Below, piece by piece: positions 33,039 through 37,725 of a stretch of DNA of 64,000 nucleotides (position 1 is its first letter; the number at the start of each line of letters is the position of its first letter). The stretch is taken from contig NZ_BMKD01000003.1 in the NCBI RefSeq assembly GCF_014643835.1, positions 1 through 64,000 of the forward strand, in the 5' to 3' direction. Below the pieces are notes generated by a model that saw only the letters and a program-made list of their open reading frames with translations, ran no database searches and was not told where the DNA came from. The translations under genes were made by a program, and so were the position numbers. This DNA is from Mucilaginibacter rubeus. Lineage in GTDB: Bacteria; Bacteroidota; Bacteroidia; Sphingobacteriales; Sphingobacteriaceae.

Positions 33039-34004
33039 ATGAAAAAATACACTTACACAGATAAAAAAGATACCCGCTCGGGCTTTGGCGCCGGGTTGCT
33101 GGAAGCAGGCCAGAAAAATGATCAGGTTGTTGCACTTTGCGCCGACCTTATTGGTTCGTTAAAAATGAACGATTTTATTAAAGCATTCCCTGAGCGTTTT
33201 GTACAGGTAGGTATTGCTGAAGCTAACATGATCGGTATTGCTGCCGGTATGACCATAGGCGGTAAAATCCCTTTTACCGGAACTTTTGCAAACTTTTCAA
33301 CCGGTAGGGTTTATGATCAGATCCGCCAGTCGGTAGCTTACTCAAACAAAAACGTTAAAATTTGCGCTTCACATGCCGGTTTAACTTTGGGCGAAGACGG
33401 TGCTACCCACCAGATTTTGGAAGATATAGGCCTGATGAAAATGTTACCAGGCATGACTGTTATCAACACTTGCGATTACAACCAAACCAAAGCCGCTACT
33501 GTTGCTATTGCTGAGTATGACGGCCCGGTTTACTTACGTTTCGGCCGCCCGGTTGTTCCGATCTTTACCGATCCCGATCAAAAATTTGAAATTGGTAAAG
33601 CATGGATGGTGAACGAAGGCGCTGATGTAAGTATCTTTGCTACAGGTCACCTGGTATGGCAGGCTATCCTTGCGGGCGAAATTTTAGCAGAGCAGGGTAT
33701 CGATGCCGAGATCATCAACATCCACACCATTAAACCGTTGGATGAAGAGGCTATTTTGAAATCGGTTGCCAAAACAGGCTGCGTAGTTACTGCCGAAGAG
33801 CATAACCGTTTGGGTGGCTTAGGCGATAGCGTTGCACAGGTGCTTGCAGTGCACAATCCATCACCACAGGAGTACGTAGCTGTAAATGACAGCTTTGGCG
33901 AAAGCGGTACACCTGAACAGCTGATGACCAAATACGGCCTGGATGCAGATCATATTGTGGCGGCGGTGAAAAAGGTGATAGAAAGAAAAAACAAAAAAGG
34001 TTAA
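33039..34004 (+). CDS. Transketolase, C-terminal (pyrimidine/C-domain) subunit
   Basis: The 321-aa partner of the preceding gene. RFVQVGIAEANMIGIAAGMT holds the conserved Glu that activates the thiamine ring, followed by CASHAGLTLGEDGATHQILE; the last ~120 residues are the transketolase C-terminal domain (GHLVWQAILAGEILAEQGID). It completes the active site with the N-terminal subunit. The start is the ATG at 33039, before KKYTYTDKKDTRSGFG. Confidence 0.94.
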   Translation: MKKYTYTDKKDTRSGFGAGLLEAGQKNDQVVALCADLIGSLKMNDFIKAFPERFVQVGIAEANMIGIAAGMTIGGKIPFTGTFANFSTGRVYDQIRQSVAYSNKNVKICASHAGLTLGEDGATHQILEDIGLMKMLPGMTVINTCDYNQTKAATVAIAEYDGPVYLRFGRPVVPIFTDPDQKFEIGKAWMVNEGADVSIFATGHLVWQAILAGEILAEQGIDAEIINIHTIKPLDEEAILKSVAKTGCVVTAEEHNRLGGLGDSVAQVLAVHNPSPQEYVAVNDSFGESGTPEQLMTKYGLDADHIVAAVKKVIERKNKKG

Positions 34005-34035: not shown

Positions 34036-34590
34036 ATGTCGGTACAGGTTGAAGATTCAGAGATATTAAGCAAGTTTCAGGACGAAAAGACCCGGAATGA
34101 AGCATTTAACCTGTTGTTGAAAAAATACCAGCAAAAAATATACTGGCACATCAGGCGCATGGTTGTTGATCATGACGATGCTGATGATCTGGTTCAGGAT
34201 GTTTTTGTAAAGGTTTGGAAAAACCTGGCCGGTTTCAGAAACGACGCGCAACTGTACACCTGGATGTACAGGATAGCATCCAACGAATGCATTACTTTTT
34301 TGAATAAGAAAAAACAAAAAAATAATGTTTCGTTGGATGATGTTGCTTATGAGCTGGCCGATACACTGGCCGACTCAACCTACTTTAACGGCGATGCTGC
34401 GCAGCGTAAGCTACAGGAAGCACTGCTTACCCTGCCCGAAAAACAACGGCTTGTTTTCAATATGAAATATTATGAAGACATGAAGTATGAAGAAATGTCG
34501 CAGGTTTTGGGTACCAGCGTGGGGGCTTTAAAGGCTTCGTTTCACCTGGCAGTCAAGAAGATAGAAGCTCATTTGCTTGGCAGGGATTAA
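34036..34590 (+). CDS. ECF-type RNA polymerase sigma factor
   Basis: A 184-aa sigma-70 family protein of ECF size. Region 2 is DADDLVQDVFVKVWKNLAGF with LYTWMYRIASNECITFLNKK; region 4 is LPEKQRLVFNMKYYEDMKYE followed by EMSQVLGTSVGALKASFHLA. It heads a three-gene set: the next gene encodes a repeat-containing membrane protein and the third an exported CpxP-like protein. This layout resembles sigma factor/anti-sigma/periplasmic sensor operons (CnrH-CnrY-CnrX type), so it is probably released in answer to an envelope signal. Confidence 0.94.
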   Translation: MSVQVEDSEILSKFQDEKTRNEAFNLLLKKYQQKIYWHIRRMVVDHDDADDLVQDVFVKVWKNLAGFRNDAQLYTWMYRIASNECITFLNKKKQKNNVSLDDVAYELADTLADSTYFNGDAAQRKLQEALLTLPEKQRLVFNMKYYEDMKYEEMSQVLGTSVGALKASFHLAVKKIEAHLLGRD

Positions 34591-34641
34591 TTTTTTAATT
34601 TACGTTAAACCTTTTAGCACTATACCAATCTATAGTTGTGT

Positions 34642-35688
34642 ATGAAAAGCGATATGGACAATAGGGAATGGCTGGATGATTTCATCGCGCTGAAACAGGT
34701 TAGCAAAACTAACCCGTTTACAGTGCCTGACGGCTATTTCCATGAGTTAGCGCAGCACATTACAACACGTATAAGGCTTGAGGGATTAAAAAACTATCCA
34801 TCTGCAGGGTATACCATACCCGAAAATTACTTTGACGAGCTAAGCAGCAACATCCGGAGCCGTATAAATATTGAGCGTGCTTTTAGCGCCGGTGATTCGG
34901 GATTTACCGTTCCCGAAAATTATTTTGATGAGCTGAGCAGCAATATTCAAAGCCGGATTGTGGTTGATGAAGCCATGAATGCGGGAGAGGGCTTCACGGT
35001 GCCCGAAAACTATTTTGACGAGTTAAGCAGCAATATCCAAGGCCGTATAGCGGTGGGGGAGGCTATGAACCTGGCTGATGAAGGCTTCTCTGTACCCGAA
35101 AATTACTTTGATGAACTGAGCAGCAACATCCAAAGCCGTATAGCGGTTGAAGAAGCCATGGGCAATGAAGAAGGGTTTACTGTTCCTGAAAATTATTTTG
35201 AGGAGCTAAGTGCCAATATTCAAAGCCGCATAGCAGTTGAGGAAGCAATAAATGCCGGGCACGAAGGTTTTGTTGTACCGATTGATTACTTTGATAAGCT
35301 TAACCAGCGCATCCTGGATAAAACAGTTAATGCTGAAGTTGAAGAGGAGCAGGAGATTGATAATGTTATAAGCATTAACAAAGCAAAACCTGTACAGAAA
35401 AAAGGAATGGTGAGAAGGCTTTGGTTGTCGCCAACCATCAGGTATGCTACAGCGGCCTGCTTTGCTTTAATATTAGGTGTGGGTGTTATTTTCAGGGGAG
35501 ATATCCAGGCGCCGGATCATAACCATTCTTACTTGCATGAGCAGGTATCATCGGTGCCGGTTGATGAAATAAAAAGCTATCTTCAGTTACACATGGACGC
35601 AAGCGATACCCGTACGCTGATAGATGCAAACCAAAAAAGCAACACAAGTAATGCAGACGAAGATCTGTCGGATTATATAGATAATTAA
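34642..35688 (+). CDS. Membrane protein with seven tandem ~31-residue repeats, putative anti-sigma factor
   Basis: A 348-aa protein between the ECF sigma gene and a CpxP-like gene. I start it at the ATG at 34642 (MKSDMDNREWLDDF), not at the TTG two codons upstream. Seven copies of (F/Y)xVPxxYFxxLxxxI begin at residues 26, 57, 88, 118, 149, 179 and 210 (period 30-31); the inner five are nearly identical (FTVPENYFDELSSNIQSRI). After an acidic linker and a basic stretch (KKGMVRRLWLSP) comes one membrane span (RYATAACFALILGVGVIF), then a ~60-residue extracytoplasmic tail ending DEDLSDYIDN. The topology (cytoplasmic N-terminus, one span) and context fit an anti-sigma factor, but I see no known anti-sigma domain. 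Confidence 0.75.
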   Translation: MKSDMDNREWLDDFIALKQVSKTNPFTVPDGYFHELAQHITTRIRLEGLKNYPSAGYTIPENYFDELSSNIRSRINIERAFSAGDSGFTVPENYFDELSSNIQSRIVVDEAMNAGEGFTVPENYFDELSSNIQGRIAVGEAMNLADEGFSVPENYFDELSSNIQSRIAVEEAMGNEEGFTVPENYFEELSANIQSRIAVEEAINAGHEGFVVPIDYFDKLNQRILDKTVNAEVEEEQEIDNVISINKAKPVQKKGMVRRLWLSPTIRYATAACFALILGVGVIFRGDIQAPDHNHSYLHEQVSSVPVDEIKSYLQLHMDASDTRTLIDANQKSNTSNADEDLSDYIDN

Positions 35689-35705
35689 ACAGAGGAAAAA
35701 ATTTA

Positions 35706-36212
35706 ATGAGTAAATTGATCAGGCATATTTGTATTGTGTTATTTGTTATGGCATTAGGCTATGAAGCTGTGGGGCAGGTTAACCGCTTTGTTCCGGCTCA
35801 AACGCCCTCAAGGCCCCAACTTAACCCGGTACGTCCTAATGGCAACAAAAAGGGCGCTATGGGTAAAAGACTTGAGGCTGCCCGTAACAGGTATATCAGC
35901 CGCCAGCTTGATCTTACTGATGAAGAGGCTAACAAATTTTGGCCGCTTTATAATCAGTACCAGCAGGAGCTTACTGCTGTACGCATTCTGAAGCGTTTAA
36001 ATAACTCCACTTCATCAACCAACGGCACCGAGCAAATAGATAAGGAAATCTATTACGAAAGCCAGCTGGTTGGGATCCGTAAACGCTACCGCGATTCCTT
36101 TGCCAAGATCCTTCCGCCCGAAAAGGTGAGTGTCCTGTACAAAAGCGAACAGGAATTTAACGATGAGCTCATCAAACAACTCAGCGAACGCAGCGAGAGA
36201 GCGGGGAATTAG
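35706..36212 (+). CDS. Exported CpxP/Spy-like protein, putative sensor of the ECF system
   Basis: A 168-aa protein with a signal sequence (HICIVLFVMALGYEAVGQ). The mature part is helical and charged; ARNRYISRQLDLTDEEANKF followed by WPLYNQYQQEL resembles the LTxxQ-type helices of Spy/CpxP and of heavy-metal sensors such as CnrX. It follows the repeat-bearing membrane protein by 17 nt, so the operon would be sigma, anti-sigma, periplasmic sensor. The signal sensed (metal, misfolded protein or other) is not visible in the sequence. Confidence 0.7.
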   Translation: MSKLIRHICIVLFVMALGYEAVGQVNRFVPAQTPSRPQLNPVRPNGNKKGAMGKRLEAARNRYISRQLDLTDEEANKFWPLYNQYQQELTAVRILKRLNNSTSSTNGTEQIDKEIYYESQLVGIRKRYRDSFAKILPPEKVSVLYKSEQEFNDELIKQLSERSERAGN

Positions 36213-36366
36213 GGGTAGTGATTAGAGGTTGGAGTTTAGAGATTAGGTTTCTTTTCTTCCTAATAAATCAAGATCATTTTAAAAATACGTTTACAGATGG
36301 ATTTTCGTCCATCTGTTTTAGTTTATCTTTGTCGGTAAATCTAAGTAGGTCATCATTGCGGACCTA

Positions 36367-36399
36367 AGACTTACGAAGTTTTTAAAACTTCGTAAGTCT
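36367..36399. repeat. Perfect 33-bp palindrome
   Basis: AGACTTACGAAGTTTT and AAAACTTCGTAAGTCT flank a single T. It sits between the CpxP-like gene and the 82-bp element at 36413, within a 319-bp gene-free stretch that otherwise shows nothing recognisable. It could end the sigma operon in either direction, but the T-run after it is poor. Confidence 0.8.
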
Positions 36400-36412
36400 G
36401 GGTTCTACTACT

Positions 36413-36494
36413 CGTCATTGCGAGGTACGAAGCAATCCCCTATAAGCAGAGCCGCTCTGTATAGTTCGCGATTGCTTCGTACCTCGCAATGACG
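36413..36494. repeat. 82-bp inverted-repeat element, copy 2
   Basis: CGTCATTGCGAGGTACGAAG opens the element and CTTCGTACCTCGCAATGACG closes it, around GCCGCTCTGTATAGTT. Nearly identical to copy 1 at 18322-18402, including the centre. It ends ~40 nt before the aminotransferase ATG. Confidence 0.88.
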
Positions 36495-36531
36495 GTTTGG
36501 ATTTTAACAGTTTTGAATACAACTTAACAAC

Positions 36532-37725
36532 ATGCCAACTCTTCGCCAGCTTTTTTTAGCCAATAACGCGCAAACCACTAATTTTCCTTTATTGCTTGAA
36601 TTTGAGCGTGCCGAAGGTATTTATATGTACAATGCGGAGGGCAAGCCTTATATCGACCTGATCTCGGGCATTGGGGTAAGCAGTCTTGGGCACAGCAATC
36701 TTTATGTTATTAATGCGATAAAGGAGCAGGTTGATAAATACATGCACCTGATGGTTTACGGCGAGTATGTACAGACCCCGCAGGTGCGCTTTGCCGAAAA
36801 GCTTGTTTCCGTATTACCGGCGCCCCTCCAGTCGGTATATTTTACCAACTCGGGTGCCGAGGCCGTTGAGGGGGCATTAAAGCTTGCCAAGCGTTTTACA
36901 GGCAGGCAGCAGGTTGTGGCTTGTCTTAACTCATATCATGGCAGCACACATGGCGCATTGAGTGTTATGGGCAATGAGGAGTTTAAACAGGCTTATCGTC
37001 CTTTATTACCGGGCGTAAATTTCATCCGTTTTAATAACCCGGAAGATCTTATGCTGATAACTCAAGAAACCGCCTGCGTGATTATCGAAACCATCCAGGG
37101 TGAGGCCGGCGTCCGTGTGCCGGATCTTGCATATATGCAGGCTTTACGCGCCCGTTGTGCCGAAACCGGTACGCTGTTGATCCTGGATGAGATCCAGGCG
37201 GCGTTTGGACGGACAGGAAAGCTTTTCGCGTTTGAGCATTTTGATATCGTACCAGATATCCTGTTACTGGCAAAAGCTTTAGGCGGCGGGATGCCGATAG
37301 GGGCGTTCATTTCATCAAACCAGATCATGGACGCGTTAAAGGAAAACCCGATCCTTGGTCATATCACTACCTTTGGCGGGCACCCTGTATGCTGCGCGGC
37401 AGGTTTAGCGGCACTGGAGTTTCTGCTGGATAACAACCTGGTATCCGGCGTAGCCGAAAAGGAAGCTTTGTTTCGGGATTTGCTTGTACACCCGGCTATA
37501 CAACAGGTACGCGGCAAAGGCCTCATGATGGCTATCGAACTGGAAAACTTCGAGCTCAATAAAAACATAATTGACCGTTGTATCGAAAACGGTGTAATAA
37601 CCGACTGGTTTTTACATTGCAGCAACTCCATGCGTTTGGCGCCTCCTTTGATCATTACCCACGACGAGATCAGGAAAGCTTGTGATGTAATTATAGAAGC
37701 GATTGATTTCTACACTAATAAATAA
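36532..37725 (+). CDS. Class III PLP-dependent aminotransferase (acetylornithine aminotransferase-like)
   Basis: A 397-aa fold-type I aminotransferase. It has YFTNSGAEAVEGALKLAKR, the aromatic SYHGSTHGALS, the PLP-contacting Asp in LILDEIQAAFGRTG, and the Schiff-base Lys in LLLAKALGGGMPIGAF. Length and motifs match the acetylornithine/ornithine/4-aminobutyrate group. No arginine biosynthesis genes are near, and the substrate is left open. Confidence 0.93.
   Translation: MPTLRQLFLANNAQTTNFPLLLEFERAEGIYMYNAEGKPYIDLISGIGVSSLGHSNLYVINAIKEQVDKYMHLMVYGEYVQTPQVRFAEKLVSVLPAPLQSVYFTNSGAEAVEGALKLAKRFTGRQQVVACLNSYHGSTHGALSVMGNEEFKQAYRPLLPGVNFIRFNNPEDLMLITQETACVIIETIQGEAGVRVPDLAYMQALRARCAETGTLLILDEIQAAFGRTGKLFAFEHFDIVPDILLLAKALGGGMPIGAFISSNQIMDALKENPILGHITTFGGHPVCCAAGLAALEFLLDNNLVSGVAEKEALFRDLLVHPAIQQVRGKGLMMAIELENFELNKNIIDRCIENGVITDWFLHCSNSMRLAPPLIITHDEIRKACDVIIEAIDFYTNK

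Follow-up and report, generated by a model that had tools for sequence, protein, structure and literature searches.

The window, a 64,000-nucleotide stretch of Mucilaginibacter rubeus (contig NZ_BMKD01000003.1, positions 1 to 64,000), contains three consecutive + strand genes, which encode an extracytoplasmic function (ECF) sigma factor, a repeat-bearing membrane protein and an exported protein and are separated by gaps of 51 and 17 nt. This is the gene order given by the original prediction, which had also proposed that the middle protein is an anti-sigma factor. The genes and the parts of the middle gene are the following:

34036..34590, + strand: ECF sigma factor of 184 amino acids with regions 2 and 4 (Pfam, TIGR02937)
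34642..35688, + strand: proposed anti-sigma factor of 348 amino acids, in which a short N-terminal segment precedes the seven tandem units, a single membrane span and a periplasmic tail
34717..34809, + strand: unit 1, of the first type (FTVPDGYF...), with NP before it
34810..35268, + strand: units 2 to 6, of the inner type (FTVPENYFDELSSNIQSR...), from repeat finder, pattern and alignment
35269..35361, + strand: unit 7, of the last type (FVVPIDYFDKLNQRILDK...)
35437..35493, + strand: membrane span at about residues 266-284 (19-residue mean hydropathy of 1.97)
35706..36212, + strand: exported protein of 168 amino acids, a distant Spy/CpxP/CnrX-type candidate with a LDLTDEEANKFWPLYNQY motif (homologues in the operon; N-terminal hydrophobic stretch)

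The product of 34036-34590 is an ECF sigma factor, matching PF04542 (Sigma70_r2, E = 1.5e-16) and PF08281 (Sigma70_r4_2, E = 7.3e-15) above the Pfam cut-offs and scoring 103.9 bits against TIGR02937 (sigma70-ECF; cut-off 42.9). The middle gene is likelier to start at ATG 34642 than at TTG 34636, the start given by the open reading frame list. Its seven FxVPxxYFxxLxxxI units begin at residues 26, 57, 88, 118, 149, 179 and 210 (nucleotides 34717, 34810, 34903, 34993, 35086, 35176 and 35269), with spacings of 31, 31, 30, 31, 30 and 31 residues, and 25 residues lie ahead of unit 1. The seven units and 30-31 residue period first described are borne out by the pattern [FY]x[VI]PxxYFxxLxxxI, which has seven matches in the protein and none in 20,000 residue shuffles, and Tandem Repeats Finder detects the repeats between 34817 and 35255, with a period of 90-93 and a score of 335. 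The 15 residues before the span include four K/R and no D/E, one K/R and two D/E come after it, and 64 residues are C-terminal to it. The charge bias fits a cytoplasmic N-terminus and a periplasmic tail, the topology originally assigned to the protein. Neither the middle nor the third protein is named by Pfam or NCBIfam. As the original prediction had stated, no curated anti-sigma domain is recognized in the middle protein, which has no anti-sigma match in either database at E ≤ 1, and searches of Pfam, NCBIfam and PDB with this protein or its unit returned chance-level matches only.

The units are of three types. Mean identities in 28 same-genus proteins are 0.40 (first-last), 0.45 (first-inner), 0.41 (last-inner) and 0.69 (inner-inner). 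In the window, the inner five units (34810-35268) share 68-86% identity in protein and 71-82% in DNA (22 codons compared). Their similarity in DNA had been correctly noted, and their reported near-identity in protein holds for the core VPENYFDELSSNIQSR but not for the whole unit. A recent expansion at this locus, which had been read from this similarity, is rejected: the proportion of differing sites between inner units is 0.74 for synonymous (pS) and 0.12 for nonsynonymous sites (pN; pN/pS 0.16), and the inner units are therefore old copies held alike by purifying selection. Truly recent inner copies are found at L028 (pS 0.16; L numbers denote loci). Seven units are also retained in the relatives L001-L005. 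When the window's units are matched to those of L001, L002, L003 and L005, the closest counterpart occupies the same position for 7, 6, 6 and 6 of the 7 units, respectively. Compared with L002-L005, dN/dS is 0.03-0.11 in the unit cores, 0.08-0.21 in the stretches between cores and 0.01-0.025 in the sigma gene. Conservation over 114 inner units reaches 98% for P, 99% for Y, 100% for F, 96% for I and 96% for R. Repeat counts in related strains, proposed earlier as a check, range from 5 to 8 units within the genus (5, 6, 7 and 8 units in 7, 13, 12 and 1 of 33 proteins), and parsimony on a 35-tip tree including two outgroup tips gives at least 11 copy-number changes.

The whole middle protein is present in 35 of 37 same-genus genomes. 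Using a 25-row unit profile, we found matches at E ≤ 0.01 in 62 of 247 Bacteroidota genomes and in 115 of 121 genomes of the window's family; a profile of the units of the window's genus alone matched 20 of the 247 at E ≤ 0.001. Adjacency was scored by script at 70 loci, those of all 62 matching genomes together with another 8 from the window's family. Homologues that never lie next to a sigma gene had been named as a refutation of the original prediction, and the opposite was found: an ECF sigma gene is adjacent on the same strand in 68 of the 70 loci (60 of the 62 genomes). Of these 68 loci, all but L279 (67) also have a Spy-like gene, and 59 of the 62 genomes carry both the sigma and the exported gene. 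The two loci without an adjacent sigma gene, L278 and L280, look ScpB-like and were judged to be false matches. In a partly redundant set of 61 loci assembled earlier, both the sigma gene next door and the exported-gene homologue were found in 61 of 61 (units were counted by script in 59, and by eye in L038 and L049).

Most relatives carry one to three units, and more than three occur in four of the 62 genomes. In g25, a second genus of the window's family, there are 5-6 units in six loci (L309-L314) and 6 in L040, which could possibly be an independent expansion. In six one-unit relatives, about 40-57 residues lie ahead of the span and the unit is the conserved core of that stretch. One-unit proteins recognized by profile (230 partly redundant, Bacteroidales-heavy proteins) mostly have an N-x-F lead-in like that of unit 1 (N 80%, P 65%, F 93%).

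A search of 80 genomes gave six matches, four of which were read; the other two, L321 (65 amino acids) and L322 (47 amino acids), are very short frames. In three genomes of two genera of a distant order, outside the window's class (G296; G632 and G652), the middle protein carries zf-HC2 at its N-terminus above the Pfam cut-off (E = 7.5e-8, 3e-5 and 2.7e-7; loci L281, L317 and L319), followed by one unit and then the span, and its gene lies between the sigma and the Spy-like gene. L318, which lies away from a sigma gene, was judged to be a false match, presumably M16-peptidase-like. In class I anti-sigma domains (PMC7406223), helices 1-3 bind sigma4 and helix 4, past a linker, binds sigma2. The unit occupies the position expected of helix 4, and the zinc bundle may have been lost and the helix-4 element multiplied.

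Among Bacteroidales, a one-unit gene lies beside the sigma gene in all 30 loci fetched. In three of them (L075, L078 and L080) the order is unit-spy-sigma, with the unit protein and Spy-like genes upstream of sigma, so that the three genes stay together despite rearrangement. The family sampled from G294 has a sigma orthologue in 54 of 61 genomes. The unit was detected in 77 of 80 named Bacteroides loci by script and in L189 by a later script; of the remaining loci, L176 is masked and L187 is where a contig ends. A second, paralogous Bacteroidales sigma/anti-sigma/Spy-like locus with a degenerate unit (Y/FxxPxGF) was also seen (L107-L110, L242, L244 and L245). At L242, the sigma gene is followed by genes for a one-unit protein of 120 amino acids, a Spy-like protein (aligned), and CBM9 and glucosaminidase-LysM proteins, and L241 in the same genome has a sigma gene, a one-unit protein gene, a Spy-like gene and SusC/SusD-like genes (by eye). 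The first layout is the one published for Phocaeicola vulgatus, in which two further genes follow cirY, cirZ and spy, and the second is that described there for the second spy (PMC13114119). The section of that paper on cirYZ-spy reports that cirZ deletion raised cirY, spy and these two genes, derepressing the sigma regulon, and it describes neither unit nor repeat. We define a Bacteroidota sigma/unit protein/Spy-like operon family (CirYZ-Spy type) by an adjacent sigma gene, one or more FxVPxxYF units ahead of a single span and an exported Spy-like gene downstream, and the three genes of the window fit this layout. Derepression of the sigma regulon on loss of the middle gene would be a further mark of the family, reported for cirZ.

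Structure prediction of the sigma factor with one repeat had been proposed as a further check. A fused model of a one-unit relative with its own sigma factor has a predicted local distance difference test (pLDDT) score of 81 and a predicted template modeling (pTM) score of 0.77; the unit is ordered and the sigma factor is closed as in CnrH/CnrY (4cxf) and SigW/RsiW. Helices are predicted at 204-212 and 224-234. The class II type is defined by two cytoplasmic helices wrapping closed sigma2-sigma4, and the contacts visible in the model amount to one bridge. Sigma residues 114-120 (34375-34395), in the sigma2-sigma4 linker, hold a YFxGD motif common to the window and the aligned Bacteroides sigma factors, the F of which is predicted to form the bridge with the unit. 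Structure comparison listed no unit-bearing structure and is no test of the unit part. In a covariation analysis, which we do not count as support, sigma 138 and unit 10 form the best inter-protein pair (rank 1 of 21,814).

The adjacency of the sigma gene, the zf-HC2 fusions, the cirYZ-spy match and the one-unit fused model argue for the role proposed originally: the middle protein probably acts, from its membrane anchor, as the anti-sigma factor for the ECF sigma factor encoded next to it, in a Bacteroidota-wide sigma/anti-sigma/Spy-like operon. Binding and an inhibitory sign in the window protein itself, as well as a release step, would belong to this role, with the FxVPxxYF unit and its following helix as the putative sigma-binding element. 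Most likely, the protein would hold its sigma factor at the membrane through these units, and envelope stress, sensed by the periplasmic tail and probably also by the Spy-like protein, would free it in a manner analogous to CnrYXH.

Several points weigh against this assignment. All the evidence on the window protein is computational. The model of the window's own sigma factor with units 1-2 is poor (pLDDT 56, pTM 0.40, units 31-51), with the units neither ordered nor docked. The fused model is without a sigma-alone or unrelated-tail control, and its read-through linker may bias docking. The predicted bridge reaches the sigma2-sigma4 linker instead of sigma2, the partner expected under the helix-4 reading, and RseA-, MucA- and ChrR-bound chains align over sigma2 only. 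The covariation is borderline, within-clade shuffles scoring as high in 2 of 61 and 3 of 60, and its sigma site 138 lies in sigma4. The unit of CirZ type is degenerate (YRTPDGFF), and the assignment of L242 to P. vulgatus is based on gene order. Finally, dN/dS in the unit cores is 0.25 relative to the nearest relative L001, with few changes.

As to the number of sigma molecules bound, the conservation of every unit and the labile copy number favor several units each holding one sigma molecule, which we suggest tentatively. The original prediction had likewise supposed that identical units could bind several sigma molecules, and that repeat number may thereby set the threshold. It is conceivable, in a more speculative form, that the protein is a multivalent sigma sponge, in which the 31-residue period is a complete helix-4-type docking module, up to seven sigma molecules are held per protein, and the number of units heritably sets how much sigma is stored and then released in a single cleavage or conformational event; such arrays would have arisen by loss of the zinc bundle and amplification of helix 4, perhaps twice (in the window's genus and in g25). 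It is also possible, though short of probable, that one sigma molecule is bound per protein, by unit 1 and the N-terminal segment or by a CnrY-like pairing of the first unit with the last, and that the inner units serve to increase the local concentration, to make the tether longer or to bind some other partner. This is allowed because the first and last units are distinct (identities of 0.40-0.45, vs 0.69 among inner units) and one-unit relatives exist, most of which keep the unit-1-like lead-in. However, the purifying selection on the inner units (pN/pS 0.16) is stronger than a spacer needs, and the lability of copy number also speaks against it.

The units could instead be unrelated to sigma, contact being made elsewhere and the repeats binding, for example, a protease or the envelope, as the unordered, undocked units of the window model would allow. 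This is improbable, since the unit is the conserved core of the pre-span stretch in the six one-unit relatives and the fused model orders that part. That the middle protein is a co-activator, scaffold or RNA polymerase tether of sigma and not an inhibitor is very unlikely: adjacency alone does not give the sign, but the cirZ deletion, in the locus matched by L242, raised the sigma regulon (PMC13114119), and zf-HC2 is in the same chain in three relatives. An array due to chance or misassembly can be practically dismissed, given the shuffles and the same array in independent genomes (L001-L005).

The exported third protein was described from the start as CpxP/CnrX-like. Weak profile matches suggest that it may be: at E ≤ 0.1, Pfam gives Metal_resist in 6 (best 8.3e-5) and LTXXQ in 4 (best 1.3e-4) of 18 homologues, but neither matches the window's own protein, whose top match in a PDB profile search is 5ihf, a VirG-like protein (E = 4.2e-4). 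One further feature lies 3′ of the operon:

36293..36325, + strand: terminator-like hairpin (consensus match only)

A promoter and terminator scan of the stretch gave site numbers close to those in shuffles (for terminator-type sites, 5 vs 3.7, sd 2.2). A transketolase-subunit gene (33039-34004) ends 31 nt upstream of the sigma gene, and an aminotransferase gene (36532-37725) lies downstream of the operon. Among 12 family-list loci, the transketolase is found in 10, the aminotransferase in 10 and both in 8; the corresponding numbers for the two genes are 11 and 25 in 32 same-genus loci with short flanks, and 1 and 0 in 12 loci from other families. Two imperfect palindromes at 36360-36500, ACTTACGAAGTTTTTAAAACTTCGTAAGT and CATTGCGAGGTACGAAGCAATC...GATTGCTTCGTACCTCGCAATG (by eye), resemble dispersed repeat elements. 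A viral collection yielded no relative when searched with the window sigma factor alone; with an 11-row sigma alignment it yielded 33 distant loci, 12 of them serving as alignment rows.

Operons of the sigma/anti-sigma/spy type with an ECF anti-sigma factor are already known. Neither a description of the unit as a signature common to these proteins nor one of its tandem amplification was found in the literature searched, which consisted of titles and abstract starts and left subscription literature mostly uncovered. In the classification of PMC7406223, only 6% of Bacteroidetes ECF genes have a class I anti-sigma domain nearby, and the restraint of the remaining ECF factors is left open; the unit offers a searchable signature for one widespread answer, is tied to class I anti-sigma factors via the fusions, and would assign a function to proteins unnamed by Pfam and NCBIfam. 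The tandem forms provide a natural series, from 1 to 8 sites, in which one could measure directly how a sigma switch responds to the number of binding sites.

Compared with known systems, the window protein resembles Dma/Reo, which are ECF anti-sigma factors of Bacteroidota that also span the inner membrane; unlike the window protein, with its 64 residues past the span, these have a C-terminal outer-membrane beta-barrel. CnrH-CnrY-CnrX of Cupriavidus metallidurans includes a class II anti-sigma factor; the only search made for a sequence relationship between CnrY and the unit, a PDB profile search, found none. CnrY is not known to have tandem units. The class I factors (RseA/RsiW/ChrR type, zf-HC2) are approached by the three relatives with the unit behind zf-HC2, at the place of helix 4, whereas the window protein has 25 residues before unit 1 and neither Pfam nor NCBIfam finds in it such an N-terminal three-helix bundle, with or without the Hx3Cx2C zinc motif. 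CirY-CirZ-Spy of P. vulgatus, by way of L242, shares with the window the gene order, a profile-matched sigma factor, a single-span unit-bearing middle protein and a Spy-like third gene, and differs in having one degenerate unit in the 120 amino acids of the CirZ type, compared with seven units in 348 amino acids in the window.
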